64,000 bases of DNA from Candidatus Hydrogenedentota bacterium (GTDB taxonomy: Bacteria > Hydrogenedentota > Hydrogenedentia > Hydrogenedentales > JAEUWI01): positions 1-64,000 of the forward strand of contig JAEUWI010000015.1 of assembly GCA_016791475.1 (NCBI GenBank). Direction: 5' to 3'. The position numbers were made by a program, and so were the translations under genes. Of this stretch, positions 31,256 through 62,811 are shown in pieces. Within the stretch, counting starts at the first letter, position 1; each line of letters opens with the position of its first letter. The notes beneath the pieces were generated by a model, which was not told where the DNA came from, made no database searches, and saw only the letters and a program-made list of their open reading frames with translations.

Positions 31256-32902
31256 ATGTCGTTGGGTATACAGCAATCCATGAGTACGGCAGCCCCCCCC
31301 TGGGGATGGGTGGGGTTGGATGCCGCGCTCCAGCCCCTCGCCGATCCCCGCTTCGCGACCGTGCTTCACCATACCGAATTGCCCTTCTCCGTGGTCCGGG
31401 ATCCTCAGGGCGAACTCGCCGCCACCACGTCCTTGCCCGAGCGCAACGTGTCTTCGGGCCTCCCCGCCCTGGCCCTGGGCCTCCCGTGCCGGGCGAGCCA
31501 ACTGGGCGACCCCACATTTCGTCGGGACCACCGTGTACGATACGCCTTCTATGCGGGCGCGATGGCCAACGGCATCGCCTCGGAAGAATTGGTGGAGGCC
31601 CTGGCCAAAGAGGGCCTACTGAGCATTTTCGGCGCGGCGGGTTTGTCTATCGAGCGCGTCAGGGAAGCCGTTGAACGCCTTCAGGCCAATCTGGGCGACC
31701 GCCCCTTCGGCTGCAATTTGATCCACAGCCCCAACGAGCAGGACCTGGAAGCCGCCGTGGCGCAGCTCTTTATCGAGCGCGGCGTGACCTTGGTGGAGGC
31801 CTCGGCCTATCTTGATCTGACGCCTTCGGTGGTGCGCTATCGCGTCCACGGCATACACGAAGACGGCGAAGGCAACATTGTCACGCCCAACCGAGTAATC
31901 GCGAAGATTTCGCGCGTCGAAGTGGCCACGAAATTCCTTTCGCCCCCGCCCGCGAAATTCCTGGAGAGGCTCGTGGCCGATGGCCACATCACGGCGGCCC
32001 AGGCGGCCCTGGCCTCGAGGATTCCCATGGCGGACGATATCACCGCCGAGGCGGATTCCGGCGGCCACACCGACAACCGCCCCGCCCTCGCGCTCCTGCC
32101 CGCGATCATCGCCCTGCGGGATCGAATTCAGGCCGAACAACAGTATGCTGGAGCCCCGCGCGTGGGCCTGGCCGGCGGCATCTCCACCCCGGCCGCGGCG
32201 GCGGCGGCCTTCGCCATGGGCGCGGCCTATATCGTAACGGGCACGGTCAATCAGGCCTGTGTCGAAAGCGGTTCCTCAGATATTGTTCGTCAGATGCTCG
32301 CGGAAGCGGAGCAGGCGGACACGGCCATGGCCCCGGCCGCGGATATGTTTGAGATGGGCGTGGAGGTGCAGGTGTTGAAGCGCGGCACGATGTTCAGCAT
32401 GCGGGGCGCGCGGCTCTACGAGCTGTATCGCCAGTATGCCAGCATCGACGAGATCCCCGCAGTGGAGCGGGAAAAGCTGGAAAAGACGATATTCCGCGCG
32501 ACCCTCTCGCAGGTGTGGGAAGACACCAAAGCCTTTTTCCAGAAGCGCGACCCAAAGCAGATTGCCCGCGCGGAGCAGGACCCTAAACACAAGATGGCGC
32601 TGATTTTTCGTTCCTACCTGGGTCAGGCCTCCATCTGGGCCAACCGGGGTGAGACGTCGCGTAAGATCGACTTTCAAATCTGGTGCGGCCCCGCCATGGG
32701 CGCCTTCAACGAGTGGGTGCGCGGCACCTTCCTCGATGACCCCAAGCGGCGCGAGGCGGCACTGGTCAATCTGAATATTCTGCACGGCGCGGCGGTAGTA
32801 CACCGGTGCACCAGTCTGGCCAGCCAGGGTATCCCCGTCCCGCCCGCGTGCATGCGGTATCGCCCGCTGGAGCGCGTCCAACTGGAGGAGTTCATCCGGT
32901 GA
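31256..32902 (+). CDS. pfaD: PfaD-type enoyl reductase of a polyunsaturated fatty acid synthase
   Basis: A 548-aa FMN-dependent enoyl reductase of the PfaD family (nitronate monooxygenase-like TIM barrel). It removes trans double bonds during PUFA synthase cycles. Marks are FGCNLIHSPNEQ and RGVTLVEASAYLDLTP in the N-terminal half, VGLAGGISTP and AYIVTGTVNQACVE at the flavin site, and the family-specific C-terminus with FRSYLGQASIWANRG and YRPLERVQL. ATG 31256 has AGGA 8 nt upstream. The gene comes first in the cluster, as in the myxobacterial pfa1-pfa2-pfa3 order, and its stop overlaps the GTG of the next gene. Confidence 0.92.
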   Translation: MSLGIQQSMSTAAPPWGWVGLDAALQPLADPRFATVLHHTELPFSVVRDPQGELAATTSLPERNVSSGLPALALGLPCRASQLGDPTFRRDHRVRYAFYAGAMANGIASEELVEALAKEGLLSIFGAAGLSIERVREAVERLQANLGDRPFGCNLIHSPNEQDLEAAVAQLFIERGVTLVEASAYLDLTPSVVRYRVHGIHEDGEGNIVTPNRVIAKISRVEVATKFLSPPPAKFLERLVADGHITAAQAALASRIPMADDITAEADSGGHTDNRPALALLPAIIALRDRIQAEQQYAGAPRVGLAGGISTPAAAAAAFAMGAAYIVTGTVNQACVESGSSDIVRQMLAEAEQADTAMAPAADMFEMGVEVQVLKRGTMFSMRGARLYELYRQYASIDEIPAVEREKLEKTIFRATLSQVWEDTKAFFQKRDPKQIARAEQDPKHKMALIFRSYLGQASIWANRGETSRKIDFQIWCGPAMGAFNEWVRGTFLDDPKRREAALVNLNILHGAAVVHRCTSLASQGIPVPPACMRYRPLERVQLEEFIR

Positions 32903-35900
32903 ATAAGCCATCGACTACGCCCGCCGATATCGCTATCGTCGGCATGGGTTGCCTTTTTCCCAAGGCGAATCACCTGGGCGCCTATTGGGCGAATATCAAA
33001 CATGGTATTGACGCCATTATCGAGACGCCCGAGAGCCACTGGCGTCCGGAAGACTATTACGACGCGAACCCGAAGCGCCCCGACTTCACCTACGGCAAGC
33101 GCGGCGGCTTTCTGGAGGCTATTGACTTCAATCCGCTGGCCTATGGCATGCCGCCGAACGCGCTGGAAGCCACGGACACGGCCCAGTTGCTTGGCATGGT
33201 GGCGGCGGAGCACGCCCTGCGCGATGCGGGCATTGGCCACGACACCGAATTCGACCGCGACCGCGTCAGCGTAGTCCTGGGCGTCACGGGAGCGCTGGAG
33301 CTGGTCATCCCCCTGGGCGCACGCCTTGGCCACCCGAAGTGGCGCGAGGCCATGGCCGACGCGGGTCTGGATGCCGCCACGATTGACGACGTGCTAGAAC
33401 GCATGGGCCAGCACTATGTGCCGTGGCAGGAAGCCTCCTTTCCCGGCTTGCTGGGCAACGTGGTGGCGGGCCGCATTACGAAGCACCTGAACCTCGGCGG
33501 CACCAACTGCGTGGTGGACGCGGCCTGCGCCAGTTCCCTGAGCGCGGTGCACCTGGCGGCGCTGGAGTTGCAGGCGGGCAAGAGCGATCTGGTGATCACG
33601 GGTGGCGTGGACACCTTTAACGACATTTTCATGTTCATGTGCTTCAGCAAGACCCCGGCCCTCTCCCCGACCGGCAATGCGAAACCCTTTGACGCGAGCG
33701 GCGACGGCACGATCCTCGGTGAAGGCCTGGGCATGATCGCCCTGAAACGCCTGAGCGACGCCGAACGCGACAATGACCGCATCTATGCCGTCATCAAGGG
33801 CATAGGCGCATCGAGCGATGGCAAAGGCGATGCAATTTATGCGCCCAGCGCGCCGGGCCAGGTGAAAGCCCTGAACCGCGCCTACGAACAGGCCGGCATC
33901 GATCCGCGCACGATTGAACTTGTGGAAGCCCACGGCACGGGCACAGCCAAAGGCGACGCGGTAGAGATCAGCGCACTCTCGACGGTCTATGGCAGTGCGG
34001 AGAACGGTCCGTGGTGCGCCATCGGCTCGGTGAAGTCCCAGATCGGCCACACCAAGGCGGCGGCGGGATCGGCTGCCCTTATCAAAGCGGCCATGGCCCT
34101 GTACACGAAGACGCTCCCCCCCACCATCAAGGTGAAGGAACCCCTGGGCCCGCTGCGGAACACGGATACGCCCTTCTATGTGAATACCCAACTTCGCCCC
34201 TGGCTGCCCCGCGCGGAACACCCGCGCCGCGCCGGAGTGAGTGCCCTGGGCTTTGGCGGCAGCAATTTTCATTGTGTGCTGGAAGAGTACGAAGCCACGA
34301 AAGCCACCCCGGACTGGGACGGCGATGTGGAGATTCTTGCCTTCTCGGGGGCGAATACTGCCGCGATCGTTTCCGCGCTGGACTCGTTCCCCGTTGCGGA
34401 AAAATGGAGCGCACAGCGCGTTGCCGCAGATACCCTTCGCGACGCTTTCGACGCGAAAGCCCCCTGCCGCTTGGCGCTCGTGGTGCGAAATGGCGAGACC
34501 GATGTCCCGAAGCTCATCGCACAGGCGAAGAGCACGTTGACGTCCAAGGGCACGACCACTTCCTGGAGCATCCCCACCGGCATCTACTTCGGTGCGGGTG
34601 AAGCCCCCGGCAATCTCGCTTTTCTCTTCCCCGGACAGGGAACCCAGTATCCCGGCATGTTGCGGGACCTCGCGTGCCAGTTCCCGGAATTCCTGAACGT
34701 ACTCGCCGAGGCCAACGCAATCTATGACGCCGCCCCCGGAACACCCCGCCTCACGGATCGTATCTATCCACACCCCGCCTTTACGCCCGAGGCCGAGACC
34801 GACCACCAGCGGCAATTGACCGCGACGGTGGTCGCGCCATCCGCCATTGGCGCGGTGAGCGCCGGCGCCCTTCGTGTCGTGGAACGATTTGGTATCACAC
34901 CCGACGCCATGGCGGGGCACAGTTATGGGGAAATCGTGGGACTGCTCGCTTCGGGCAAGGTGAGCGAAGCCGACTTCCATCTCCTTTCCAAGTTGCGCGG
35001 GTCGCTCATGGGCCAGGGCCAGGGCGACAAGGGCACCATGATGGCCGTGCGCGCGCCCGAAGACCGCGTGCAGGAGCTTATCGATTCGTCCGGCTTGAAG
35101 GTCATCATAGCGAACAAGAACGCGCCGGAGCAGATGGTGCTGGCGGGCGGGACGGAAGCCATGGCCGAGGCCGAAGCTGCCTTCAGTAAACTTGGCATTC
35201 AAGCAAAGATGCTGCCAGTGGCGGCGGCCTTCCACAGCGAGTATGTGTCCCATGTGCGCGATCCCTTCCTGCAAGCGTTGCAGGGAATGGAAATCGGCGC
35301 GGGAACCGTGCCGCTTTATGCCAACACCAACGCAGAGCCTTATCCGGATAACCAGGACACCGTGCGGGTCTTAATCGCCGAGCAACTCGCCAGGCCCGTG
35401 GAGTTTGTTCGTCAAATCCAGCGCATGTACGCCGATGGGGTACGGACTTTCCTGGAAATCGGTCCCGGCTCGCGCATGTCGGGCCTTGTGGACGCCATCC
35501 TGGGCGACGCGCCCCACAACGCCGTGGCCATCGACGGATCGAACGGCAAGCGTGATGGCATCGTCGATCTGGCCCGCGCGCTCGCGGAAATTGCGGTGCT
35601 GGGCTATGCCGTCAATCTTGACGCGTGGAACGACGGAGCCCCGGTCGATCCGGAGTCGCTGAAACCCAAAGCCAAGATGACCGTGCCCATCTGCGGCGCC
35701 AATTACGTGACCCCGCGCGAAAAGAAACCCAAGTCCGCGCCCCGCCCCGTGGCGGTGGCCCAACCGGCCCAGGCCGTGAATTCGACCATGACGCTTACAC
35801 CATCCACACCCGCCGCGCCCGCGCAGCACGCGAGTCCCCAGCCCGTTGCCATGCCGAACGCCGCACTCCAGGCCACGGAACATCACCTGATCGCGCTGCA

Positions 35901-38900
35901 GCGCATGCAGCAGCAAACCGCCGATCTGCACCGCCAGTTCCTGGAAGGACAGCAGGCCGCGCTGGAAACCTTCCGCGCATTGCTCGGCCAGCAGCAGGGC
36001 TTGATGAGCGGACAGCCTGTGGCGGCTTTCGCGCCCGTGGCGACCGCGCAGGTTACACCGCAAGCGCCTGTAGTTTATCGGACCGATCAGACGGATCGGA
36101 CCGATTCGGTTGTGGCATCACCGGCGATTGTGGCGGTATCCACGCCCCTGGCGACTCCCACTGCCCGAAACACCTCGGGCATTGAAGCCGCACTTTTGGC
36201 CACGATTTCCGAAAAGACCGGCTACCCCACCGAGATGCTGGAACTGGGGATGTCCCTCGATGCCGATCTGGGCATCGATTCCATCAAGCGCGTGGAAATC
36301 CTTTCCGGCTTGAAAGAGCGCCTCCCCGAGGCGCCCGAATTTGGCCCCGACCAACTGGGCACCTTCCACACGCTTGGCGATATCGTGAACTACATCGCGG
36401 CGAACAGCACACATCGATCAGATCGGTCTGATCCGTCGGATCGGTCCGATGACCGCGCGACGAAAACTGTAGTCAGCACCACGGCCATCGAAACGGCGCT
36501 CCTCGCGACCATCGCGGAAAAGACCGGCTACCCCACCGAGATGCTGGAACTGGGGATGTCCCTCGATGCCGATCTGGGCATCGATTCCATCAAGCGCGTG
36601 GAAATCCTTTCCGGCCTGAAAGATCGCCTGCCCGATGCGCCCGAGTTTGGCCCTGACCAACTGGGCACCTTTCACACCCTCGGCGACATCGTGAACTACA
36701 TCGCGGCGAACAGCGCACATCGATCAGATCGGTCTGATCCGTCGGATCGGTCCGATGGCCCCGCGACGAATACGGCGGTCGGCACCGCGGCCATCGAGAC
36801 GGCCTTACTCGCGACCATCGCCGAGAAAACCGGTTATCCCACCGAGATGCTCGAGCTCGGCATGTCCCTCGATGCCGACCTCGGCATCGATTCCATCAAG
36901 CGGGTGGAGATTCTCTCCGGCCTGAAAGATCGCCTGCCCGATGCGCCCGAGTTTGGCCCCGACCAACTGGGCACCTTCCACACCCTCGGCGACATCGTGA
37001 ACTACATCGCGGCGAACAGCGCACATCGATCAGATCGGCCTGATCCGTCGGATCGGTCCGATGGCCCCGCGACGAAAACTGTGGTCAGCACCACGGCCAT
37101 CGAAACGGCCCTGCTCGCGACCATCGCGGAAAAGACCGGCTATCCCACGGACATGCTCGAACTCAACATGGCGCTGGACGCGGACTTGGGTATTGATTCC
37201 ATCAAGCGCGTGGAAATTCTCTCCGCCTTGAAAGATCGCCTGCCGGAAACGCCCGAGTTTGGCCCCGACCAGTTGGGACAATTCCATACGCTGGGCGACA
37301 TCGTGGCGTTCATTGCGGCTTCCGGTGCAAATCGGACCGATCAGACGGATTCGACTGATCGGACACCGAAGATGCTTTCCACGCCCGAAGCCACGCCCGG
37401 CGATCCCCTTTCCATTCGTGCGGTCACCGCCGTTCCCACGGCGCTTGACGCGGGCGACCCACTTGCCCTTGGCGGCGGCACGCTGGTCGTGGTGTCCACG
37501 GGCAATCCGCTCGGCGGCGCCCTGGCCGCCTTGCTGAGAGAGCGCGGTCTCGACGTTAAAGCCAGTTTCTGGAATGACTCGCCAGCGACCTTGCCCGACT
37601 CGCTTGCAGGGTTGATTCTGGTTGCGCCGGAGGGCCCAAGCCCCCACGACCTCATGGAAAACGCCTTTGCCTGGATCCAGCAGGCGGGCGCGCGCATGAA
37701 GGCCAACAACGCGGGCTTGATTGCGAGTATTACTCAACTCGACGGAGCGTTTGGCACCGTCGCCATCAAAGGCGATGCCCTGATGGGTGGTCTTGCGGGA
37801 CTGGTGAAGACTGCCGCCCACGAGTGGCCCGCGATCACGTGCAAGGCTATAGATATTGCTCCCGATGCGCCATCGCCGGTAAATCAGGTAATCGACGTGC
37901 TCTTGCAGAAGAGCGCCACCGAGATTGGCATTACGGTCGACGGCCTGGTCACCCTGTGCCTGGTGCCGAATGAATTGGCAGGATCGTCAGCAGCACCCAT
38001 TACCCCCGGCGATGTCGTCGTCGTAACCGGCGGTGCGCGGGGCGTCACAGCCGATGTCGCCCTCGCCATGGCGAAGGCGTGGAAGCCCACGCTGCTCCTG
38101 CTGGGTCGCAGTGCCCCTCCAACCGCGGAAGCTTCCTGGCTCGCGCCGCTGGCGACAGAAGCAGAAATACGGCAAGCCCTGCTGGCCCGGGCCAACGGCG
38201 CGCTGAAGCCTAAAGAACTGCGCGAGGCGCTTGATACCGTACTCCGGAACCGGGAAGGCTTGCGCAATATCGAGGCCATGGTGGCGGCGGGCGCCGAGGT
38301 GCAGTACCACGGCACGGATATCCGCGACGCCAATGCAGTCGCTACGCTATTGGACGAAATCCGTGCGTCACGCGGTCCGATCCGTGGCATCGTCCACGGC
38401 GCGGGCGTGCTGGCGGACCGACTGATCGAAGACAAGACTCTGGAGCAATTCAATCAGGTCTACGGCACGAAGGTGGACGGGCTGAACGCGCTCCTCGCGG
38501 GCGTGGGCGGTGATGATCTGAAGTTCATCGCGCTCTTCTCGTCCTCCACGGGACGCTTTGGTCGCAAGGGACAGATCGATTATGCCGCGTCCAACGAGAT
38601 TCTCAACAAGATCGCTCAGCGCGAGGCCAAAGCCCGGCCGAATTGCCGCGTGGTTTCCGTTAATTGGGGCCCCTGGGCGGGCGGAATGGTCAATGCGGAT
38701 CTCGCGAAACTATTCAAATCCGAGGGCGTCGGTCTCATTGGCCTGAATGATGGTGCGGAGTTCCTGGTGGAGGAATTGAGCCAGCCGACGCCACGCCCGG
38801 TAGAAATTGTCGTGATGGGCGGTGAAATTCCGGCGTTCAATGTTTCGCCCGTGCCCGTCGCGCCGGCGCGAAAAGCTTCCGGCGCCGCGTTCCGTACCGC

Positions 38901-39780: not shown

Positions 39781-39902
39781 TGACCGCGCTCGCGATTTCC
39801 GCCCTTCTGCGAACGGCGGTAACGCCAACGTCCGGATCAGTTCTGAGAAACGCCGCGGCGGCGGGACCAGAACGTCGACTTGGTCTTTGTTAGTCCGGGA
39901 GC

Positions 39903-39993
39903 TTACCCCCCTGCCCCCCCGCAAGCGGGGGGAACCATACTTGTCGAACTGAACCTCTTGGTTCCCCCCGCTTGCGGGGGGCCAGGGGGGTAA
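39903..39993. repeat. Long foldback element in the pfaA-pfaC gap
   Basis: Two 35-bp arms (39903-39937 and 39959-39993) are inverted copies with one mismatch, separated by 21 nt. Each arm itself contains a CCCCCCGCAAGCGGGGGG palindrome. On the plus strand it would form a very stable hairpin between the two synthase genes. Confidence 0.85.
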
Positions 39994-40061
39994 AACCTAG
40001 ATCGTGTATCGCCCCTTTTTGGGTGGCGCGAAGCGTCATGAATGACGCTCCCTGGAACACT

Positions 40062-43000: not shown

Positions 43001-46000
43001 CCACCCCGCCCGCGCTATCGCCCTGGTGGCCCGGTCGGTGTCGGAATTGCTGGAACAGATCGAAGGCCTTCGTCAAGCCCTCACAAGCCAGCCCGAACAG
43101 GGCATCGGCGGACGCTTTCAGCCGCCCCGGGATCCGGCCGCGCGCGACCGCGTCTTCTATTCGCCGGATCCCCTCGGCGTAACGGGCAAGATCGCCTTCG
43201 TCTTCCCCGGTTCGGGCAATCACTACGCCGGGATGGGCCGCGATCTTTTCGCCCAGTGGCCCGCCATCCTTCGTGCGCAAGACACCTCGAACAACTTCCT
43301 CCGCCAGCAATATCAGCCGGACGTTTTCTGGCGCGACACACGTGACTTTAACCAGAACCATAAGGCCATGATCTTCGGCCAGGTATCCCTCGGCACGGCG
43401 GTGAGCGATCTCGTACGGAGTTTCGGCATCGAGCCCCAGGTGGCCATCGGTTACAGTCTGGGCGAAACCGCAAGCCTATTCTCGCTGGGTGCCTGGCGTG
43501 ACCGCGATTTGATGCTGGACCGCATCGCCCATTCGCGCCTCTTCACCGACGAGCTCGCGGGCGACTGCAACGCCGCCCGGCGCGCCTGGCAGTTGCCCGG
43601 ACAAGAGGCGGTGGACTGGGTGCTGGGCGTTATCGACCGCCCCATGAAGGTGGCGAAGCAGGCCCTGAAGCAGCGCAAGAAGGTCTATCCCCTGATTGCG
43701 AACACCTTCCAGGAATCCGTCATCGGCGGTAACCGCAAGGCGGTCGAGAAGCTCATCGCCAAGTTGGAGTGCCAGTTCATTCCCCTCGAAGGCGTGACCA
43801 CCGTGCACTGCGATGTGGTGAAAGAGGTGGAAAAAGAATACCGCGACCTGCACCTCTTCAACACCACGCCGCCGAAGGGCATACAGTTTTTCAGCGGCGC
43901 CTGGGGCAAGAGCTATACGGTTAGCCGCGAAAGCGCGGCCGATTCCGTGCTGGCGCAGGCCATCGACGGCGTGGACTTCCCGGCCGTGATCGAAGGGGCC
44001 TACGCCCAGGGGGCCCGTTTCTTTATCGAAATGGGACCGGGCAATTCGTGCAGCCGCATGATCAGCCGTATCCTCGCGGACAAGCCCCACCTGGCGCGTT
44101 CGGTATGTTACGACGGCCACAGCGCGGTGTCGCTCGTATTGCGCACACTGGGCCAACTCGTCGTGGAGGGCATCCCCGTGAATCTCGATGCACTCTACGG
44201 CCATGGCGAGCCCGAAATCATTGCCGAGACCGACCGGCCGATGGTCCGTATCGCCGTGGGCGGCGGGCCCTATGTGGCGCCGCCGGTGCCGAAGGTGGAG
44301 CCCGTATACGCGCAGGCGAAGGCCCTCGCACAGGCGAGAATGAACAATAGGACGGATACGACCGATAGGACGGATAAGGAAAACACGGTCAATCGGTCCG
44401 ATCAGTCGAATCGGTCAGATTGGGCACCCGCCGCCAGCGCGGGCCTCTCCCCCGCGCTGCTGGAAAGCGTCGCGCTGGCGGAATCCGCCGCGGCCTCGGC
44501 CCACGCCCAGTACCTCCATTTCGCGGACACCATGCAGCAGGTCATGGCGGGCGGAATCGCGTGGCAGATGCAACTGCTCACCCAACCCGGTGTAACGATC
44601 GCACCCCTCGCAGTGGAAGCACCGGTGCGCGCCGACGTAGTCTTCGACCGCGATCAGTGCATGGAATTCGCCATCGGCTCCATCGCAAAAATGCTCGGAC
44701 CCCGCTTCGCGGAGGTGGACACCCATCCCACGCGGGTGCGCTTGCCCGATGAGCCCCTTATGCTGGTCGATCGCATCACCGCGCTGGAGGGCGAGCCCTG
44801 CTCCATGGGCTCGGGCCGCGTGGTCACCGAGCACGACGTGCTGCACAACGGCTGGTACCTCGACGGCGGCCACATTCCCACATGCGTCGCGGTGGAAGCG
44901 GGTCAGGCCGACTTGTTCCTTTCCGGCTATCTCGGCATCGATTTCGAGACGAAGGGTAAGGCCATGTATCGCCTGCTCGACGCCGAAGTGACCTTCCTCG
45001 ATCACACGCCGGTGGCGGGCCAGATCATCCGCTACGACATTCACATCGACCACTTCTTCCGCCATGGCAATCCGTGGTTCTTCAAATTCTGGTTCGACGC
45101 CACGGTGGACGGAAAACCGTTGATGACCATGCGCAACGGTTGCGCGGGCTTCTTCACCGAAGAGGATCTCGCGGCGGGCCAGGGCGTGGTGGATTCGCGG
45201 CTGGCGCTGCAGAATGATCGCGGCACGCTGCCGGTCGACTGGCGCGAACTCGTGCCCATGGCCCCCGCATCGTACAACGACGCTCAGGTCAACGCGCTCC
45301 GCGTGGGCAATCTGGCCGGGTGCTTCGGCGATGCTTTCGCCGCGCTGCCGCTGCAGAATCCCGTTCGGATTCCCGATGGCAGGATGAATCTCGTCCATCG
45401 CGTGCTCGAACTCACGCCCGGTGGTGGCCGCTATGGTCTCGGCAGAATTGTGGCCGAGGCGGACATCCATCCCGACGACTGGTTCATCACGTGCCACTTC
45501 GTGGATGATCGCGTCATGCCCGGCACGCTGATGTTTGAGTGCTGCCTTCACACGCTGCGTATTTACCTCATGCGCATGGGCTGGGTGGCCGAGGCCGAGG
45601 CCGCCTATTGGGAGCCGCGCCTTGGAGTCACCGGAAAGCTCAAATGCCGCGGTCAAGTGCTGGAAACGACAAAGAAGGTGACTTACGAGGTCAACATCAA
45701 AGAACTGGGCTACGGTCCTCAGCCCTACGCCGTGGCCGATGCACGCATGTACGCCGACGGCAAGGCCATCGTGGATATCGGCGGCATGTCGATCCAGTTG
45801 CAGGGCCAGACCCGCGAGGGGCTTGAGTCGCTGTGGGCCAACGTTCGAAACAACGACGGCACGCCGCGTCCGGCGCTCTACACCTACGAACAGATTCTCG
45901 CTTTTTCGTCGGGCAAGCCGTCCGAGGCCTTTGGGGCGCCCTACGCGATTTTCGATCCGGGCCAACCCCGAAAGATCGCCCGCCTGCCCCGACCGCCCTA

Positions 46001-46967
46001 TCAATTCCTGGATCGCGTCGTAGCGGTTACCGGCACGCCCTTCGTACTCGAAGCCGGGCCCACGGTGGAGGCGCAATACGACATTCCGGCGAACGAGTGG
46101 TATTTCGGCGCGAATCGCCAGACCGACATGCCCTTTGCCGTGCTGCTGGAGATCGCGTTGCAGCCCTGCGGCTGGCTCGCGGCCTATTGCGGCTCCGCAC
46201 TCACCAGCGATATCGATCTGAAATTCCGCAACCTCGGCGGCAAGGCGATCCAGCACCAGGTGGTAACGGCGGCGACCGGTACCCTCACCGTGAAAGTGAA
46301 GATGACGGCGGTGTCGAATTCCGGCGGCATGATTATCCAGCACTACCATATGGCGGTACATGGCGCGACGGGGTGCCTCTACGAAGGCACGACCTACTTC
46401 GGTTTCTTCTCCCAGGCGGCCTTGGCCGATCAGGTGGGCATCCGCGAGGCCGTGCGCTATCAACCGACCGCTCAGGACATCGCCGCAAATGCGCCTCTCC
46501 CCTATCCAGTGGAAGCCCCCTTCCCCGACGACCAATGGCGTACGCTGGACCAGGTCACAGTCTATTCGCCCGAGGGCGGACCTGCGGGATTGGGCTTTAT
46601 TCAAGGCACCCTGAAGGTCCGGCCCGACACGTGGTTTTTCCAGGCACACTTTTTTGAAGATCCGGTGTGCCCCGGCTCGCTCGGCCTGGAATCCTTCCTG
46701 CAACTACTCAAATATTTCGCAGTGCAACGCTGGGGTGCGGATGCTTCCACCCACTTCGAGACGATAGCCGTGGGCGAAGAGCACGAGTGGATCTATCGAG
46801 GTCAAATTATCCCCACGGACAATGAAGTGACGGTGGAGGCGGTGATCACAGGCATCGATGATGATCGGAGATTGATTCATGCCGATGGCTTTTTGGTCGT
46901 CGATGGCCGCGTGATTTATCAGATGAAGAAACTCAGTCTGCGCGTAGGGACAGCGTCGGACCCGTGA
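40062..46967 (+). CDS. pfaC: PUFA synthase KS-CLF-AT-DH-DH megasynthase
   Basis: About 2301 aa from ATG 40062 (MKQPAIAIVGMGG); ATG 40038 is also possible and neither has a clear Shine-Dalgarno. Domains: ketosynthase with Cys190 in DAACASSL and HATGTAVGDA; a second KS-like unit from about 480 in which the active Cys is Glu661 (SGEESSG), so a chain length factor; acyltransferase with Ser1132 in GYSLGE (PfaB-like, here fused); then two double-hotdog FabA-like dehydratases. In each, the first hotdog lacks the catalytic His while the second has it (His1812 in CHFVDDRVMPG; His2196 in AHFFEDPVCPG). The layout equals myxobacterial Pfa3 without its terminal acylglycerolphosphate acyltransferase. A 9-bp-unit linker (RTDTTDRTD, NRSDQSNRSD) lies between AT and DH. 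Confidence 0.92.
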   Translation: MKQPAIAIVGMGGIFPDAPDLDTFWRNILSGKASAKEAPADRWLLPVDEAYDPEQGKADHVYSKRGCFIDGAVPLKLDALDLDAELVCQLDPMYHLLLHAGTTAMADAGARQWDHSTTGVIVGNLALPTEQSSALARAILGRTFEEKVLGESPDTPMPHPLNRYVTGLPAAVLAKALGLGGTAYTLDAACASSLYAIKLAVDELQAGRADVMLAGGVSRPDPLYTQMGFAQLRALSPTGTCSPFDKAGNGLVVGEGAGVFVLKRLDDAIADGNTIHGVIRGIGLSNDVGGRLLAPTSEGQLRAMRAAYAAAGWKPESVGLVECHATGTAVGDAIEVDSLKQLWAEAPWAPGQCTLGSVKSNIGHTLTAAGSAAMLKALLALKHGQLPPTASYRQSPESWKLGESPFVVRSAPEAWNSESPRRAAVSAFGFGGINAHVLVEEWIAPDRVAPTTVEPLEGPECPIAIVGMDAHFGPWQGLHAVRQRLLGGGAEVAPQSPTHWHGVEQSAWYRRTGLSRNAFKGYWLGEIATRLDRFRIPPKELEEMLPQQLLMLQVAVNAWEHAGHADYGDEATGVYIGVGLDLNTTNFNVRWSLQKQAKAWLKAQGGDTSPEAVEQYLATLRDALTPALTANRTMGGLASVAASRIARELRCGGPSFTLSGEESSGIHALEAATRALQRGEINQAIVGAVDLAGDVRAVLGSHHHSPFSPTGEGVGLDASSDGAIIGEGAVAFVLKRLEDAEADGDRVIAIIKGMGSAAGGGVDSARSVTAYQDAVQRAAQDGHIDLGSVEYVEAHGSGVASEDAVEAEALAALYTHDDATTDLQHCLVGTAMNDIGHTGAAAGLAGVLKAALCLHHEILPPLRRVTAPIDALTKGTSRLWAPDAPQYWLHDKAAGPRRAGASSMTPGGGHTHVILEGAPMGASTIAQPLGQREEALFILTGDSAASLLAGLERLKQLAHRNGEMGMESLARAWWQQHPVAHPARAIALVARSVSELLEQIEGLRQALTSQPEQGIGGRFQPPRDPAARDRVFYSPDPLGVTGKIAFVFPGSGNHYAGMGRDLFAQWPAILRAQDTSNNFLRQQYQPDVFWRDTRDFNQNHKAMIFGQVSLGTAVSDLVRSFGIEPQVAIGYSLGETASLFSLGAWRDRDLMLDRIAHSRLFTDELAGDCNAARRAWQLPGQEAVDWVLGVIDRPMKVAKQALKQRKKVYPLIANTFQESVIGGNRKAVEKLIAKLECQFIPLEGVTTVHCDVVKEVEKEYRDLHLFNTTPPKGIQFFSGAWGKSYTVSRESAADSVLAQAIDGVDFPAVIEGAYAQGARFFIEMGPGNSCSRMISRILADKPHLARSVCYDGHSAVSLVLRTLGQLVVEGIPVNLDALYGHGEPEIIAETDRPMVRIAVGGGPYVAPPVPKVEPVYAQAKALAQARMNNRTDTTDRTDKENTVNRSDQSNRSDWAPAASAGLSPALLESVALAESAAASAHAQYLHFADTMQQVMAGGIAWQMQLLTQPGVTIAPLAVEAPVRADVVFDRDQCMEFAIGSIAKMLGPRFAEVDTHPTRVRLPDEPLMLVDRITALEGEPCSMGSGRVVTEHDVLHNGWYLDGGHIPTCVAVEAGQADLFLSGYLGIDFETKGKAMYRLLDAEVTFLDHTPVAGQIIRYDIHIDHFFRHGNPWFFKFWFDATVDGKPLMTMRNGCAGFFTEEDLAAGQGVVDSRLALQNDRGTLPVDWRELVPMAPASYNDAQVNALRVGNLAGCFGDAFAALPLQNPVRIPDGRMNLVHRVLELTPGGGRYGLGRIVAEADIHPDDWFITCHFVDDRVMPGTLMFECCLHTLRIYLMRMGWVAEAEAAYWEPRLGVTGKLKCRGQVLETTKKVTYEVNIKELGYGPQPYAVADARMYADGKAIVDIGGMSIQLQGQTREGLESLWANVRNNDGTPRPALYTYEQILAFSSGKPSEAFGAPYAIFDPGQPRKIARLPRPPYQFLDRVVAVTGTPFVLEAGPTVEAQYDIPANEWYFGANRQTDMPFAVLLEIALQPCGWLAAYCGSALTSDIDLKFRNLGGKAIQHQVVTAATGTLTVKVKMTAVSNSGGMIIQHYHMAVHGATGCLYEGTTYFGFFSQAALADQVGIREAVRYQPTAQDIAANAPLPYPVEAPFPDDQWRTLDQVTVYSPEGGPAGLGFIQGTLKVRPDTWFFQAHFFEDPVCPGSLGLESFLQLLKYFAVQRWGADASTHFETIAVGEEHEWIYRGQIIPTDNEVTVEAVITGIDDDRRLIHADGFLVVDGRVIYQMKKLSLRVGTASDP
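44349..44430. repeat. 9-bp-unit linker repeat in pfaC
   Basis: Two runs of degenerate 9-bp units (44349-44378 and 44389-44430) encode the Thr/Ser-Asp-rich linker between acyltransferase and dehydratase. The unit is related to that in the pfaA linkers and to the intergenic arrays at 62581-62772. Confidence 0.6.
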
Positions 46968-47035
46968 CGTTGGCAGCAATAGAGCACTACTTAACCATCG
47001 CAAATCGACCGAGCGCGGTGAGCCACAACGTCCGG

Positions 47036-47154
47036 GGCTGTCCTGTCGTAAGGGAAGCGCACGGGACACGAAAGACGTTCTCAATCCGCGACATTGCCCC
47101 TGTATGCGGGCGCTGTTGTTGTTTAGCGTGCGCCTGGGCCACGACAGGACAGCC
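47036..47154. repeat. Inverted repeat in the pfaC-oleA gap
   Basis: GGCTGTCCTGTCGT (47036-47049) and its perfect complement (47141-47154) bracket 91 nt; the arms extend imperfectly inward for 13 more bases ending in GCGCAC/GTGCGC. No gene is found between 46968 and 47254. Confidence 0.7.
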
Positions 47155-47254
47155 GCGCCGGTTGCGATTTCTTGCCCTCGTGCGAATTTAAATGTATCAC
47201 CAGTAGATTGATTCGCGGACCGCAGACCTGTGGCGCCGCTGTCCCTGAGGTATC

Positions 47255-48301
47255 ATGAAATACACCAAATCCTATATCGACACCATCGGCTACGAGCTTG
47301 CGCCCGTGGTGGTGAGTTCCGACGAAATCGAGGAGTCGCTTGCGCCACTCTATGAGAAGCTCCACATCCCCTTCGGGCAATTGGAGTCGCTCACGGGTAT
47401 CCACGAGCGCCGGTGGTGGCCTGCGGGCTATGCCCTGAGCGATGGCGCCATCGCCGCAGGGCGCAAAGCCCTCGCGCAATCCGCCGTCACACCCGCCGAC
47501 ATCGGCGCGGTGGTGTATTGCGGCGTCGGGCGCGACAACTTCGAGCCGGCGACGGCCTGTCGCGTCGCGGCGGAGCTGGGCATCAGCGGCAATACCGCCA
47601 TTTTCGACATCAGTAACGCATGCCTCGGTGTTATCAACGGGATCATGGACGTCTCCAACCGCATCGAGCTCGGCCAGATCCGCGCGGGGCTTGTGGTGTC
47701 GGCGGAAACGGCCCGGGATATTGTCGAAGAGACCATACAGAAAATGCTCGCGAACCCCACCATGCCCTATTACATCGAATGCCTGGCCACCATGACCGGT
47801 GGTTCGGGCGCGGTGGCGGTGCTGGTGACCGATGGATCGTTCCGCCCAGAGGAAGAGCAACACCAAGTCCTTGGTGGCGTGGCCCTCGCCGCGCCGGAGC
47901 ACCACGGTCTCTGCACCTGGGGCCTGGAGCGCGTGGACGGTCCCCTGCGCAGGCAATTCATGAGTACGGACGCGGTTTCGGTTTTGAAGCATGGCGTGTC
48001 GCTAGGACTGGCGACGTGGGAGGCGCTGCTGGCGGAGATGGGCTGGACCCGCAATGAAGTGGACAAGGTGATCTGCCACCAGGTGGGCCATGCGAACAAA
48101 GACGCAATCCTGAAGTCGATACAGATCGCGCCGCAGAAAGACTTCGCGACCTTCGGCTACCTCGGCAACATGGGGACGGTGTCATTGCCCATCACGGCGG
48201 CGATTGCAAGCGAGCGCGGGCATTTGGTCGCGGGAGACCGGGTGGCCTTTCTGGGAATTGGCAGTGGTTTGAACTGCATGATGCTGGGACTGCGCTGGTA
48301 G
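47255..48301 (+). CDS. oleA: OleA, thiolase-fold acyl-CoA condensing enzyme of olefin biosynthesis
   Basis: 348 aa, start ATG 47255 with GAGG just upstream. OleA performs non-decarboxylative head-to-head Claisen condensation of two long acyl thioesters to a 2-alkyl-3-keto acid. The thiolase-fold catalytic set is present: Cys123 in ISNACLGV, His275 in CHQVGHAN and Asn305 in GNMGTVS, and a Glu at 97 (DNFEPAT) where OleA places its extra base. That Glu, together with downstream oleB, oleC and oleD, separates it from FabH. Position directly after a PUFA synthase suggests polyunsaturated acyl substrates. The gene is separated from pfaC by 287 nt. Confidence 0.92.
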   Translation: MKYTKSYIDTIGYELAPVVVSSDEIEESLAPLYEKLHIPFGQLESLTGIHERRWWPAGYALSDGAIAAGRKALAQSAVTPADIGAVVYCGVGRDNFEPATACRVAAELGISGNTAIFDISNACLGVINGIMDVSNRIELGQIRAGLVVSAETARDIVEETIQKMLANPTMPYYIECLATMTGGSGAVAVLVTDGSFRPEEEQHQVLGGVALAAPEHHGLCTWGLERVDGPLRRQFMSTDAVSVLKHGVSLGLATWEALLAEMGWTRNEVDKVICHQVGHANKDAILKSIQIAPQKDFATFGYLGNMGTVSLPITAAIASERGHLVAGDRVAFLGIGSGLNCMMLGLRW

Positions 48302-48313
48302 TATCGAAGAGAC

Positions 48314-48884
48314 CAACCACAAATGGACACGAATTCACACGAATAAGAGCATCGACGACACGACGCCAAGCCAGCGATTTCCCTGCGGTTCAAGCAACCG
48401 AAGCAAATGCGAATAAAGGAAAATAGGAGGGCAAATGGTATGAGCGAATCCGGCAAGATAGTTCGTGGAAAGGAAGTTTACGAAATAATTGGTTGTGCGA
48501 TGGAGGTGATTAACTCCGTAGGGCATGGCTACCACGAGAAGCCTTATGAAAATGCATTAGTCGTTGAGTTCGGACTCCGTGGCATTCCGTTTCAACAGCA
48601 GCCGAAATTCGAAATCGTGTATAAGGAAGTACCCGTGGGAATCTACATTCCCGATCTCATAGCCTATGGCGATATCATTATCGACACAAAAGTAATCGAC
48701 AGAATTACCGACCGCGAGCGCGGACAGATTTTGAACTACATGCGAACCGCTCGCTGCCGCGTCGGGCTCATAATCAATTTCCGATATGCAGAACTCGAAT
48801 GGGAACGGTTGGTGCTGTGAAGCCAATAGGTGCTGCGAGAGAAAAACCCTCTTATTCGTGTATTTTCGTGTCCATTCGTGGTTG
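48314..48884 (+). mobile_element. Putative GxxExxY cassette bracketed by 36-bp inverted repeats
   Basis: The left arm (48314-48349) and right arm (48849-48884) are inverted copies with 4 mismatches in 36. The arms consist of 9-10-bp ATTCGTGT-like units. Between them lies one GxxExxY gene and nothing else. The segment is visibly richer in A+T than the ole genes either side, which supports insertion. No clear target duplication is seen. Confidence 0.55.
48440..48820 (+). CDS. GxxExxY-family protein
   Basis: About 126 aa from ATG 48440 (GGAGG 9 nt upstream); the frame opens at 48407. The family signature GYHEKPY follows INSVGHG near residue 33. A conserved acidic and lysine pattern, IPDLIAYGDIIIDTKVID, resembles the D-(D/E)xK core of PD-(D/E)XK nucleases, although no activity is established for the family. 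The gene interrupts oleA and oleB, is more A+T-rich than they are, and is enclosed by inverted repeats. Olefin synthesis is not known to need such a protein, so it is best read as a passenger or part of a small mobile unit. Confidence 0.82.
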   Translation: MSESGKIVRGKEVYEIIGCAMEVINSVGHGYHEKPYENALVVEFGLRGIPFQQQPKFEIVYKEVPVGIYIPDLIAYGDIIIDTKVIDRITDRERGQILNYMRTARCRVGLIINFRYAELEWERLVL

Positions 48885-48936
48885 AATTTTTCTTCCAAAT
48901 ACTTCGGTGATTGTTCACCTGTGGATTGAAAACTAG

Positions 48937-49821
48937 ATGTCCGTTCAGAATTTCCCCTTCAAACCAAAACACATCAACCGCAACGGCCTCAAATACAACT
49001 ATGTCGACGAAGGCCAGGGCGATCCCGTGGTCATGGTCCACGGCAATCCGTCGTGGTCCTTTTATTACCGCAACCTCATCGACGCGCTGAAGGGCCAATA
49101 CCGCTGCATCGCGCCGGACCACATTGGCTGCGGGTTGTCGGATAAGCCGGGCGATGACCAGTACACCTACACGCTCAAGAACCGCGTGGATGACCTGGAG
49201 GCGCTCCTCGATCATCTGGATGTCACGAAGAACGTCACGCTTGTCGTCCACGATTGGGGCGGCATGATCGGCATGGCCTGGGCCACGCGCCATCCGGAGC
49301 GGGTGAAGCAGATCGTGGTGTTGAACACTTCGGCCTTTCACCTCCCCGACACAAAGCGCTTTCCATTGGGCCTCTGGATCTGCCGGAACACCTGGTTGGG
49401 CACCGTCCTCGTGCGCGGCTTCAACGCTTTCGCCCGCGGTGCGGCGTGGGTCGGTTGCAAGCGCAATCCCATGCCGAAGGAACTGCGCGACGCCTATTGC
49501 GCGCCCTACGACTCGTGGGACAACCGCATCGCCACGCTCCGCTTCGTGCAGGATATCCCCCTGCGTGGCGAAGACCCGGCCTACCCCATCGTGACGGAGG
49601 TGGAACTGAAGGCGAAGCAATTCGCCGACCGTCCCATGCTCATCTGCTGGGGTCTGCTCGATTTCGTATTCGACAAGCATTTTCTCAAACTCTGGACCGA
49701 CCAATTCCCCCAGGCCGAGGTGCATCGCTTTACCGATTGCGGGCATTATATTCTGGAAGATGCGAAGGACGAGGTGATTGGGCTTGTACAGCGCTTTCTG
49801 GCGCGAAGTCTGCCGACGTGA
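48937..49821 (+). CDS. oleB: OleB, alpha/beta-hydrolase beta-lactone decarboxylase
   Basis: 294 aa of the haloalkane-dehalogenase-like alpha/beta hydrolase fold. OleB splits CO2 from the beta-lactone made by OleC to give the cis-olefin. Seen here: oxyanion segment VHGNPSWSFYYR, nucleophile Asp106 in VVHDWGGMIG and base His270 in DCGHYILEDA. The HGNPSWS and HDWGG motifs are shared with dehalogenases, but the oleA-C-D context decides the role. The Shine-Dalgarno is weak. The upstream gap holds the GxxExxY cassette and the downstream gap (49822-50015) a cloverleaf foldback. Confidence 0.9.
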   Translation: MSVQNFPFKPKHINRNGLKYNYVDEGQGDPVVMVHGNPSWSFYYRNLIDALKGQYRCIAPDHIGCGLSDKPGDDQYTYTLKNRVDDLEALLDHLDVTKNVTLVVHDWGGMIGMAWATRHPERVKQIVVLNTSAFHLPDTKRFPLGLWICRNTWLGTVLVRGFNAFARGAAWVGCKRNPMPKELRDAYCAPYDSWDNRIATLRFVQDIPLRGEDPAYPIVTEVELKAKQFADRPMLICWGLLDFVFDKHFLKLWTDQFPQAEVHRFTDCGHYILEDAKDEVIGLVQRFLARSLPT

Positions 49822-49837
49822 CAAGGTAGACATCGCC

Positions 49838-49924
49838 AAGCGGGAGCGCGGGTTTTCTTACCCGCGTTTCGTGTGCCAAAGGCACACGAAACTTACACGG
49901 ACTGGAAAGTCCGTGCTCCCGCTT
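49838..49924. repeat. Perfect cloverleaf-like foldback in the oleB-oleC gap
   Basis: An outer 10-bp stem (49838-49847 with 49915-49924) encloses three hairpins: 6 bp at 49848-49865, 12 bp with an AAA loop at 49866-49892, and 7 bp with a GGAA tetraloop at 49897-49914. All stems are perfectly paired and only four bases (49893-49896) between hairpins are unpaired. The whole element is 87 nt. Confidence 0.85.
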
Positions 49925-50015
49925 TCGCATCAAACCTCGAATAGAACACGCCACTTTGCGGTATCATGAGGGAATACAGCAGGCGCCATCCGGGGCAACG
50001 CATGAGGAATAGACC

Positions 50016-51683
50016 ATGACCACCGAAACACCAACCCTACCGGGCAACATCGCGGCCCATCTGCCGCGGATGGCCGCGCTCCATCCCGATCACCTTGCGG
50101 TAAGCGTTCAGCTTCCCGGTGGGAGCACGGGCCGCCACAAGTATGCCTCATACACGCTGAAGCAGCTCGACGACCAGAGCGATCGCATCGCCCACGGACT
50201 GGACCGTATCGGTATTTCGCGCGGCGTGCGGACGGTGCTCATGGTGAAGCCGAGCCTGGAATTTTTCGCGCTGACCTTTGCCCTGTTCAAAGTGGGCGCG
50301 GTTCCCGTGCTGGTCGATCCCGGCATGGGCATGAAGAATCTCAAGACCTGCCTGGCCGAAGCGGAGCCGGCGGCTTTCATCGGCATTCCCAAGGCCCATG
50401 CGGCCCGGCAATTACTCGGTTGGGGCAAGCCAACCATCAAGACCCTGGTGACCGTGGGTCGCAAGCTCACCTGGGGCGGCTACACCCTGGACGGCATCAC
50501 GCTGAAGGACAGCAAGTCCTTCGCACCCGTGGAGCCGAAGCCCAATGAAACCGCCGCGATCCTCTTCACCAGCGGCAGCACGGGCGTGCCCAAGGGCGCG
50601 GTGTACACCCATGAAGTCTTCAACGCGCAGGTCGAAATCCTGCGTGAGAACTATGGCATCACCCCCGGTGAAAAAGATCTGGCCACTTTCCCCCTCTTTG
50701 CCCTTTTCGGCCCGCCGCTGGGCATGGCCGCGATTATCCCCGATATGGACGCGAGCCAGCCCGCCGCATCAAATCCGCAGCATATCAGCGACGCGATCCA
50801 CGATCACCAGGCCACGAATCTCTTCGCCTCCCCCGCGCTTATCGAGCTCGTGGGGCAGCACGGCATCGCGAACGGCGTCCTGCTGCCCAGTTTGAAGCGG
50901 GTCATCTCCGCAGGTGCCCCCGCATCCAATCCGTCCCTGGCGCGCTTCTGCAAGCTGCTGGCGGACGGCGTGGAGATTTTCCCGTCCTATGGTGCGACGG
51001 AGGCCCTGCCCGTGGCCTATATCGGCACGAACGAACTGCTCAGCGAGACGGTCGAAGCCACCGACAACGGCGCGGGCGTCTGCGTGGGCCGCTCCGTGCG
51101 CGGCGTGGAGGTGTCCATCATCCAGATCACCGACGACCCCATCCAGCATTGGTCGGACAAGCTTCACTGCGCGCAGGGCGAGATCGGCGAGATCACCGTC
51201 ACGGGACCCGTGGTCACCAAGGCCTATTTCAACCGACCCGAATCGACCAACCTCGCGAAAATCAAGCACCCGGACCTCGGCATCATCTATCACCGCATGG
51301 GCGATGTGGGCTACTTCGATGAGAAAGGGCGCCTCTGGATGTGCGGGCGCAAGGCCCACCGCGTTGTGACGCCGGAAGGCACGCTGTTCACCATTCCCGT
51401 GGAGCGTATTTTCAATACCCACCCGGCGGTAAAGCGCACGGCGCTGGTCGGCGTGGTGAAAGGCGGAATCACTATCCCCATACTTTGTGTGGAAAAATCC
51501 GGCAACACCGGTGGCCTCGACGACGAAGCCCTGCTTGCGGCGCTCAAGGAGATCGGCGGAAAACACGATATTACGCGCCCCATCCACCATTTTCTGTTTC
51601 ACCCCAGCTTTCCGGTGGACGTGCGCCACAACGCAAAGATCTTCCGTGAGGCACTGGCCGAGTGGGCCAAGGATAAGATTTGA
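50016..51683 (+). CDS. oleC: OleC, AMP-dependent beta-lactone synthetase
   Basis: 555 aa of the acyl-AMP ligase superfamily. OleC uses ATP to close 2-alkyl-3-hydroxy acids to beta-lactones. The nucleotide motif is FTSGSTGVPKGAVYTH near residue 180; later motifs are SYGATEALP, which binds adenine, and GDVGYFDEKGRLWMCGRKAHRV, the hinge and ribose-binding stretch. Unlike acyl-CoA ligases it needs no CoA. The start ATG 50016 has GAGGA 7 nt upstream. The stop overlaps the oleD ATG (TGATG), so oleC and oleD are coupled. Confidence 0.9.
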   Translation: MTTETPTLPGNIAAHLPRMAALHPDHLAVSVQLPGGSTGRHKYASYTLKQLDDQSDRIAHGLDRIGISRGVRTVLMVKPSLEFFALTFALFKVGAVPVLVDPGMGMKNLKTCLAEAEPAAFIGIPKAHAARQLLGWGKPTIKTLVTVGRKLTWGGYTLDGITLKDSKSFAPVEPKPNETAAILFTSGSTGVPKGAVYTHEVFNAQVEILRENYGITPGEKDLATFPLFALFGPPLGMAAIIPDMDASQPAASNPQHISDAIHDHQATNLFASPALIELVGQHGIANGVLLPSLKRVISAGAPASNPSLARFCKLLADGVEIFPSYGATEALPVAYIGTNELLSETVEATDNGAGVCVGRSVRGVEVSIIQITDDPIQHWSDKLHCAQGEIGEITVTGPVVTKAYFNRPESTNLAKIKHPDLGIIYHRMGDVGYFDEKGRLWMCGRKAHRVVTPEGTLFTIPVERIFNTHPAVKRTALVGVVKGGITIPILCVEKSGNTGGLDDEALLAALKEIGGKHDITRPIHHFLFHPSFPVDVRHNAKIFREALAEWAKDKI

Positions 51684-52687
51684 TGAAGGTATTGGTAACG
51701 GGCGGCGGCGGCTTTCTCGGCGGCGCGATCATTGACAAATTGTTGGCGCGCGGCGTCGAAGTGCGCAGTATTTCGCGCGGAAAGTATCCCGTGCTGGAAG
51801 CCAAAGGCGTGGAATGCATCCAGGCGGATCTCTCCGACGCGGAGGCGGTGACCGCCGCGACCACCGACTGTGTCGCCGTGATCCACACGGCGGCCAAGGC
51901 GGGCGTCTGGGGCGACTACCAAGACTACTTCGACGCGAACGTGACCGGCACGCGCAATGTCATCCTCGCGTGCAAGGCCCACGCCGTGCCGAAGCTGGTC
52001 TACACCAGCACGCCGAGCGTGACCTTCGCCGGTGAGGACGAAGACGGCGTGGACGAGTCCATGCCCTATGCGGAGAATTTCCTCTGCCACTACGCGGAAA
52101 CCAAGGCCCAGGCCGAGCGCGATGTCCTCGCGGCGAACGGCGGCACCCTCAGCACCGTGGCGTTGCGCCCCCACCTCATCTGGGGACCCGGCGATCACCA
52201 CCTGGTGCCTCGCGTCATCGCGCGGGCAAGAGCGGGTAAGCTCAAGCTCGTGGGTAGCGGAAAAAACCGTGTCGATGCGACGTATATCGACAACGCCGCC
52301 GATGCGCACCTTTGCGCGCTGGATACCCTCAGCCCCGAGGCCGCATGCGCGGGCAAGGCCTACTACATTTCCAACGACGAGCCCATCCCCATGGGTGCGC
52401 TCATCAACAAAATTCTGAAGGCGGGCGGCCTGCCCCCCGTCACCCGGAGGGTCCCTCCGGCCATGGCCTACTTCGTCGGCGCGTCCCTGGAAAAAATCTA
52501 CGGAGCGATGGGCAAAGACGAGGAACCCATCATGACCCGCTTCGTCGCCCGCCAACTGGCGACCGCCCACTGGTTCAATATATCCGGAGCAAAGCGCGAC
52601 CTGGGCTATCGGCCTTCCGTGAATATGGACGAAGGCATGCGGCGACTGGAAAATTGGTTGAAGTTGAATCCGCATGAACCGGATTGA
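51683..52687 (+). CDS. oleD: OleD, NADPH-dependent 2-alkyl-3-ketoalkanoate reductase
   Basis: 334 aa from ATG 51683, of the extended short-chain dehydrogenase group. OleD reduces the OleA product to the 2-alkyl-3-hydroxy acid. The N-terminus is VLVTGGGGFLGGAI, with the GxxGxxG cofactor loop; the catalytic pair is Tyr137 and Lys141 in HYAETKAQAE; TSTPSVTF lies where the catalytic Ser is expected. The later region KLVGSGKNRVDATYIDN is typical of the 3-beta-HSD-like branch to which OleD belongs. It ends 45 nt before the acyltransferase gene. Confidence 0.9.
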   Translation: MKVLVTGGGGFLGGAIIDKLLARGVEVRSISRGKYPVLEAKGVECIQADLSDAEAVTAATTDCVAVIHTAAKAGVWGDYQDYFDANVTGTRNVILACKAHAVPKLVYTSTPSVTFAGEDEDGVDESMPYAENFLCHYAETKAQAERDVLAANGGTLSTVALRPHLIWGPGDHHLVPRVIARARAGKLKLVGSGKNRVDATYIDNAADAHLCALDTLSPEAACAGKAYYISNDEPIPMGALINKILKAGGLPPVTRRVPPAMAYFVGASLEKIYGAMGKDEEPIMTRFVARQLATAHWFNISGAKRDLGYRPSVNMDEGMRRLENWLKLNPHEPD

Positions 52688-52732
52688 GCGTTTCGTGATT
52701 TCACCCGCGGCTCGTCGCCGCGCTATACTCAA

Positions 52733-53572
52733 GTGCCCTGGCCAAGGCAACTGGAAAATCAGGAAGTGAAGGTAGAAACCCAAGAGCAAGAAATAACGGT
52801 GTCCCGTGCCCATTCCAGCCGACTGCGCACCCTCCTGCGTATAACCAACATGTTGCTGGCGACGGCGCGGGTGGTGCCCCCCTACTATGTCGGCCAGTTT
52901 CGCTACCGTAGCGAGGCGGACCGTGTGCGCCTGCTTTATCGGGGCACCCAGGACTGGCTCACGGCCATGGGGCGCGCCGCCGGGATTCGCTCCGTCACCG
53001 TGGAGGGCGCCCCACCCGAAAAAGGCTCCTTCATCGCGCCGAACCACATCACCTATGCGGACATTTGCGCCCTGAGCACCGCCACGCGCATGTGGTATGT
53101 ATCCAAGGCCGACGTGCTCAATTGGCCCCTCTTCAACCGCCTCTTTCGCTTCTCGCGCAACCTCACCGTGGATCGCGACAATATCCGTTGCCTCTCCGCA
53201 ACCAACGAGAGCATCGCCCGGCGAATTCAGGAGGGCTACAACGTCTGCGTCTTCCTGGAAGGCACCACAGGCGGCGGAGACGTCATCCTTCCCTTCCGCG
53301 GCCCCTTGCTCCAGCCCGCACTGGACGGCGGCGTGGACATTGTACCCGTGTGCATCAAGTGGCGCGCGGACGATCCCGCCATCGACGTCACCCAGGACAT
53401 CGCCTACTGGCGCGGCACGCCCATGGGGCCCCATGTCATGCGCTTCCTCGGCTTCAACGGCGTCCACGCCACGGTCCGCTTCGGCACACCGATCAAGGCG
53501 GAGGGTGATCGCAAAGTCCTGGCCGAAACCGTGCGCGACGCTGTCGTGGCCATGCATGAAGAGATGAGTTAA
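52733..53572 (+). CDS. PlsC-like lysophospholipid/glycerolphosphate acyltransferase
   Basis: 279 aa from GTG 52733; later GTG codons are possible and none has a strong ribosome site. The acyltransferase motifs are NHxxxxD as His105 to Asp110 (APNHITYAD) and FLEGTTGGG in place of the usual FPEGTR. A hydrophobic region lies before them. In myxobacterial PUFA clusters the third synthase ends in such an acyltransferase that moves product to glycerolipids; here the domain is missing from the synthase and a separate gene closes the cluster. It could therefore offload polyene acyl chains to membranes, in competition with OleA. This link is inference. Confidence 0.8.
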   Translation: MPWPRQLENQEVKVETQEQEITVSRAHSSRLRTLLRITNMLLATARVVPPYYVGQFRYRSEADRVRLLYRGTQDWLTAMGRAAGIRSVTVEGAPPEKGSFIAPNHITYADICALSTATRMWYVSKADVLNWPLFNRLFRFSRNLTVDRDNIRCLSATNESIARRIQEGYNVCVFLEGTTGGGDVILPFRGPLLQPALDGGVDIVPVCIKWRADDPAIDVTQDIAYWRGTPMGPHVMRFLGFNGVHATVRFGTPIKAEGDRKVLAETVRDAVVAMHEEMS

Positions 53573-62580: not shown

Positions 62581-62662
62581 GATGCGACTTTATGGGACTT
62601 ATGGGACTTATGAGTCGTATGAGTCGTATGAGTCGTATGAGTCGTATGAGTCGTATGAATCC
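62581..62662. repeat. 9-bp minisatellite A
   Basis: Nine units of a 9-bp motif: GATGCGACT, one extra T, two TATGGGACT, five TATGAGTCG and TATGAATCC. No gene is supported between 62373 and 62867; frames reading YESYES-type peptides through it are repeat artefacts. Confidence 0.9.
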
Positions 62663-62691
62663 GCCCAGTGCACCGCCGACATATCCTTGGC

Positions 62692-62772: not shown

Positions 62773-62811
62773 CCCATGGTCCCATCCCCGCCCCCCCCCC
62801 CCACACACAAT

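Follow-up and report, generated by a model that had tools for sequence, protein, structure and literature searches.

A linked pfa–ole gene cluster predicted to make a long-chain polyunsaturated hydrocarbon in the phylum Hydrogenedentota

The window analyzed here, i.e. the whole stretch of 64,000 nucleotides from a Candidatus Hydrogenedentota bacterium, represents contig C15 of a 7.7 Mb genome assembled in 529 contigs. Between positions 31256 and 53572 it carries pfaD, pfaA, a fused pfaBC, oleA, oleB, oleC and oleD as long open frames, all on the forward strand, together with two further genes:

31256..32902, + strand: pfaD, trans-acting enoyl reductase of the PUFA synthase, 548 aa (PF03060 and PF21607)
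32899..39780, + strand: pfaA, KS-AT-ACPx4-KR-DH, 2293 aa (Pfam domains, motifs, GTG start)
40038..46967, + strand: pfaBC fusion, KS-CLF-AT-FabA-FabA, 2309 aa (Pfam domains, motifs, ATG start)
47255..48301, + strand: oleA, head-to-head acyl condensing thiolase, 348 aa (3ROW family, E 5e-58)
48407..48820, + strand: PD-(D/E)XK_3 (GxxExxY-type) gene in the oleA–oleB interval (PF13366, E 2e-31)
48937..49821, + strand: oleB, beta-lactone decarboxylase of the haloalkane dehalogenase fold (PF00561; haloalkane dehalogenase, E 2e-39)
50016..51683, + strand: oleC, AMP-binding beta-lactone synthetase (PF00501, E 3e-51)
51683..52687, + strand: oleD, 2-alkyl-3-ketoalkanoate reductase (PF01073, E 1e-53; start context)
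52733..53572, + strand: PlsC-type acyltransferase (PF01553, E 2e-18)

The most likely start of pfaA, a GTG at 32899, overlaps the pfaD stop, oleD shares one base with the oleC stop, and the remaining intergenic gaps of the pfa–ole locus measure from 45 to about 290 bases, a spacing consistent with the predicted co-transcription of these genes. A scan for sigma-70 promoters and terminators gave no signal clearly above the shuffled expectation. The original prediction of pfaD, pfaA, a pfaC-like gene and oleABCD on one strand with intact catalytic residues is borne out by the open reading frames, the Pfam domains and the motifs, with all seven named genes in place and the refinement that the “pfaC-like” gene is a fused pfaBC. 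The interval given for these genes also holds the PD-(D/E)XK_3 gene between oleA and oleB and ends with the PlsC-type acyltransferase, not with an ole gene.

The product of pfaD is 55–61% identical to PfaD of Geobacter, Geomonas and other Desulfuromonadales. PfaA shows the Pfam domain order KS-AT-4 ACP-KR-DH, with the motifs DAACASS in the KS, GHSYGE in the AT, LGIDS in each of the four ACPs, TGGARG in the KR and HxLAG in the DH, and its ACP array is encoded at 36211–37305 by a tandem repeat with a 306-bp unit present in 3.6 copies. The third gene, read from the ATG at 40038, is a fused pfaBC and a pfaB-type acyltransferase is therefore not missing; its product, in the order KS-CLF-AT-FabA-FabA, has DAACASS in KS1, a CLF with E replacing the Cys, GYSLGE in the AT and two FabA-type dehydratases with the HF..D motif, and these active-site motifs closely match the orthologues of Geomonas, Geobacter and Pelovirga. 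Of the features that mark membership of the Pfa-type synthases, a multi-ACP PfaA, a fused PfaBC built as KS-CLF-AT-DH2 and PfaD are present. The DH region of PfaBC is about 55–65% identical to its counterparts in Desulfuromonadales, Thiotrichaceae and planctomycetes and, with about 60% identity to the Geobacter-type region and about 35% to Shewanella PfaC, the synthase is, as judged by sequence identity, of the Geobacter type and not of the EPA type.

As a separate observation, degenerate 9-bp repeats (ATCGGTCAG / ATAGGACGG) encoding RSDRSDPSDRSD-like linker peptides lie at 36079–37365, around and between the PfaA ACPs, and at 44346–44420, in the AT–DH linker of PfaBC. That repeats of one kind occur in both genes hints at a linker repeat that is spreading. 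At 62590–62777 the window also holds tandem repeats with a short period of 9 bp, TATGAGTCG and CCCATAAGA.

The OleA protein aligns with the Xanthomonas OleA 3ROW (E 5e-58), and its catalytic E97, C123, H275 and N305 are invariant in the 14 sequences aligned. OleB, about 60–69% identical to OleB of Geobacter and Shewanella, has the Asp nucleophile in VVHDWGG and the His in GHY, and the nucleotide-binding motifs are intact in OleC (TSGSTGVPKG) and in OleD (GGGGFLG, together with YxxxK), the latter starting from the ATG at 51683. The sequence features of an OleABCD pathway, namely the Cys/Glu/His/Asn set of OleA and intact OleB, OleC and OleD, are present. OleA is about 54–64% identical to OleA of Shewanella, Geobacter and planctomycetes, and in a quick tree it falls within the clade of Shewanella, Geobacter and planctomycete OleAs, where it groups with sequences from Hydrogenedentota of the same genus; the branching within this clade is partly open, and a long starred branch parts the clade from a second Hydrogenedentota type and from Xanthomonas OleA. 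It also shares 40 of the 47 columns that separate Shewanella, Geobacter and Geomonas OleA from 3ROW and from the 43%-identical forms, a set that serves as a clade signature and not as a measure of the pocket.

Among 68 Hydrogenedentota genomes, this OleA type occurs in 13, and the same 13 carry a high-identity PfaBC DH region, neither of the two being present in the other 55 (13/13 vs 0/55, Fisher p = 3e-14); weak matches of 34–36% in G063 and in G035, the latter besides its own cluster, were left out of this count. In 12 of these genomes oleA and pfaBC are same-strand neighbours, and in the remaining one, G007, they lie on separate contigs. A chance neighbourhood of pfa and ole genes is ruled out by this co-occurrence, and the arrangement lies far beyond chance because it is conserved across phyla. 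OleA enzymes are promiscuous as a family, which lends some credit to the idea that the pfa–ole neighbourhood is incidental and that OleA works on ordinary FAS II acyl-CoA as in Xanthomonas; the strict co-occurrence, the same-strand adjacency in two phyla and the clade membership of OleA all speak against this, and make it very improbable. The dedicated coupling of the two gene sets proposed in the original prediction is instead supported, with the pairing found in relatives within the phylum and in Desulfuromonadales as well; a lack of the pairing in every relative, which the original prediction named as its refutation, is thus not what is seen.

The presence of oleB bears on the end product. 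Of the 13 genomes that bear the cluster, 12 have OleB, and in the thirteenth the contig stops just after oleA. This, and the Asp and His retained by OleB in the window, argue against an end product that is an intermediate (beta-lactone or ketone) or of another chain length and not an alkene, as might be considered from the separation of oleA and oleB in G007, G013 and the Schlesneria loci and from the beta-lactones made by oleACD clusters without oleB (PMC7064751); such an outcome is considered quite unlikely. At the level of single loci, pfa, oleA and oleB of G007 lie on three different contigs (oleA at L030, contig C399), and oleA stands without oleB-oleC-oleD alongside in L030, L076 and L080.

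Several other genes of this phylum resemble parts of the cluster. The second OleA type, about 41–43% identical, is found in a different Hydrogenedentota family, in a single genus (L016, L017 and L018, from G043, G051 and G041, respectively), where oleB adjoins in all three loci and oleC also in L016 and L018, with no matching PfaBC; it probably belongs to an ordinary olefin pathway. PfaD-like genes of 50–60% identity occur in many Hydrogenedentota, a further family of the phylum included, with no PfaA or PfaBC nearby (L122–L128, L131, L135 and L040 at 14430–16385), and a lone PfaD match was therefore not taken to indicate pfa; a domain scan of two of these neighbourhoods (L126 and L040) detected no PUFA synthase, and in L040, from G005, an OleD-like reductase (58%) follows the stand-alone PfaD-like gene. 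In G035, a second PfaC-like open frame of 2437 aa with about 34% identity (contig C197, 35317–37698) exists besides the pfa–ole cluster and possibly encodes a different secondary lipid synthase.

When named genomes were scanned with the OleA alignment, matches of 54–79% identity came from Hydrogenedentota, Shewanella, Photobacterium, Colwellia, Psychromonas, Geobacter, Geomonas, other Desulfuromonadales, Schlesneria and other Planctomycetota, and Thiotrichaceae. Of 19 loci from Desulfuromonadales or Deltaproteobacteria, 18 have pfaBC immediately upstream of oleA and in the same orientation; in the remaining one, L113, pfaD and pfaA occupy that place and pfaBC is on another contig. All ten Desulfuromonadales genomes checked have pfaD on the strand of oleA and about 14–16 kb upstream of it, the distance in the window being 16.0 kb. 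The order pfaD-pfaA-pfaBC-oleABCD and the spacing of about 16 kb between pfaD and oleA are shared with Geomonas and Geobacter. A PfaC-type DH region was present in each of 23 further genomes with OleA of this clade, most of which are Gammaproteobacteria or Schlesneria-type planctomycetes that lack the tandem. In the gammaproteobacterial loci L044–L104, OleA and OleB are roughly 59–68% identical to those of the window, about as close as Geobacter's, whereas the PfaC DH is at about 35% vs about 60% for Geobacter, suggesting that the ole genes were re-paired with another type of synthase.

The genome search found a single phosphopantetheinyl transferase, a Sfp-type protein of 254 aa on the unlinked contig C19, which contains FNLSH and QGKP and matches hRxhLS only loosely; the motifs described for PUFA-associated enzymes are hRxhLS, x(G/D)xP and (F/S)NxSH (PMC3098273). 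The PD-(D/E)XK_3 gene at 48407–48820 is absent from its place next to oleA in every other locus compared and is probably not part of the pathway; in the same-genus G001 the oleA–oleB interval consists of about 2.3 kb of other sequence. The PlsC-type acyltransferase is a candidate pathway member. Its gene starts 45 bp after oleD, and a 76% homologue lies about 3 kb past oleD in G001. Together with the production of both EPA and C31:9 from one synthase in Shewanella (PMC6463001), this has led us to consider that the cluster yields membrane PUFA, via the acyltransferase, in addition to hydrocarbon. A dual output of this kind is possible but doubtful, given that the Desulfuromonadales loci and the other Hydrogenedentota families compared show no PlsC match beside the cluster, that the match in G005 is weak and about 9–10 kb from oleD, and that the synthase resembles the Geobacter type and not the EPA type.

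The polyene-hydrocarbon pathway put forward in the original prediction remains the best reading and is well supported by the intact motifs, the OleA clade, the conserved order, the co-occurrence and the C31:9 of Geobacter bemidjiensis. The locus is very probably a Type I-like pfa–ole cluster producing a polyunsaturated hydrocarbon of long chain length, for which hentriacontanonaene (C31:9) or a closely related homologue is the likeliest candidate, where “Type I-like” is assigned from the PfaBC, PfaD and OleA identities and the OleA tree, the synthase Types themselves being defined by proximal KS phylogeny. In the proposed pathway, PfaA, PfaBC and PfaD would be activated by the unlinked Sfp-type phosphopantetheinyl transferase and, working without oxygen on the tandem ACPs, would assemble a polyunsaturated acyl chain of about 16:4 with methylene-interrupted double bonds. 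OleA would then accept a pair of these chains, probably handed over directly by the ACPs, and condense them head-to-head to a beta-keto acid, which OleD would reduce to the beta-hydroxy acid, following which OleC would close the beta-lactone and OleB would remove CO2 from it to give an internal alkene of about C31. What is observed is the set of genes with their motifs, their conserved order and their co-occurrence; to this the scheme adds a chain length, an ACP hand-over and a final product that we infer from Shewanella and Geobacter, the chain length because the publications consulted describe no reconstituted Type I synthase. That the Hydrogenedentota version makes a different polyene, of another chain length or with a phospholipid/hydrocarbon split set by the PlsC-type enzyme, and so a phylum-specific membrane lipid or biomarker, appears unlikely.

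The coupling of the two gene sets has precedents. The ole genes were described as “often linked” to pfa-type clusters (PMC3098273), the pfa and ole operons are adjacent in Photobacterium profundum SS9 (PMC6463001), and Allemann et al. (2019) reported that OleA mediates pfa–ole coupling in vivo, drawing on the Shewanella Pfa synthase (PMC6463001). A tandem of pfaD, A, B, C, oleA, B, C, D and pfaE has been described in the hentriacontanonaene producer Geobacter bemidjiensis (PMC4882568, PMC3098273). The novelty of contiguity implied in the original prediction thus does not hold, being ruled out by the neighbourhood comparison, the ten same-strand spacings in Desulfuromonadales and these publications. 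The only news is the linked pfa–ole cluster in the little-studied phylum Hydrogenedentota, the gene order being already known from Geobacter. PfaA-KS amplicons were assigned to Hydrogenedentes in 2025 (PMC11837533), and the literature search, outside which most subscription journals lay, returned no earlier report of a linked pfa–ole cluster in Hydrogenedentota and no lipid data for any member. The findings extend the linked hydrocarbon cluster to an uncultivated phylum, offer in the complete co-occurrence a clean genomic test that this OleA clade pairs with a PUFA-type synthase, and support assigning C31:9-type polyenes in anoxic environments to sources beyond marine Gammaproteobacteria and Geobacter.

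Compared with the known systems, the locus is most like the Geobacter bemidjiensis Bem cluster in gene content and order, in the fused PfaBC (KS-CLF-AT-DH2), in same-strand linkage and in OleA clade, a likeness drawn from the sequences of Geomonas and Geobacter relatives and, for G. bemidjiensis itself, from its published description; it differs from that cluster in having the phosphopantetheinyl transferase on another contig, the PD-(D/E)XK gene between oleA and oleB and the PlsC-type gene at the end. Photobacterium profundum SS9 likewise has neighbouring pfa and ole genes and an OleA of the same clade (about 60% in the Photobacterium loci compared), but its EPA synthase is of Type A, with pfaB and pfaC as two genes, and in the Photobacterium loci L066 and L091, unlike in the window, pfaA is on the strand opposite to oleA. 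The C31:9 makers Shewanella oneidensis and S. pealeana share a Pfa-fed OleA, with OleABCD about 47–68% identical in the Shewanella loci, whereas pfa and ole are unlinked within 10 kb in the loci compared and PfaC is about 31–38% identical. Finally, Xanthomonas campestris OleABCD, whose OleA uses FAS II-derived chains in an organism with no pfa cluster, shares the OleA fold and catalytic residues but differs in an OleA identity of 38%.
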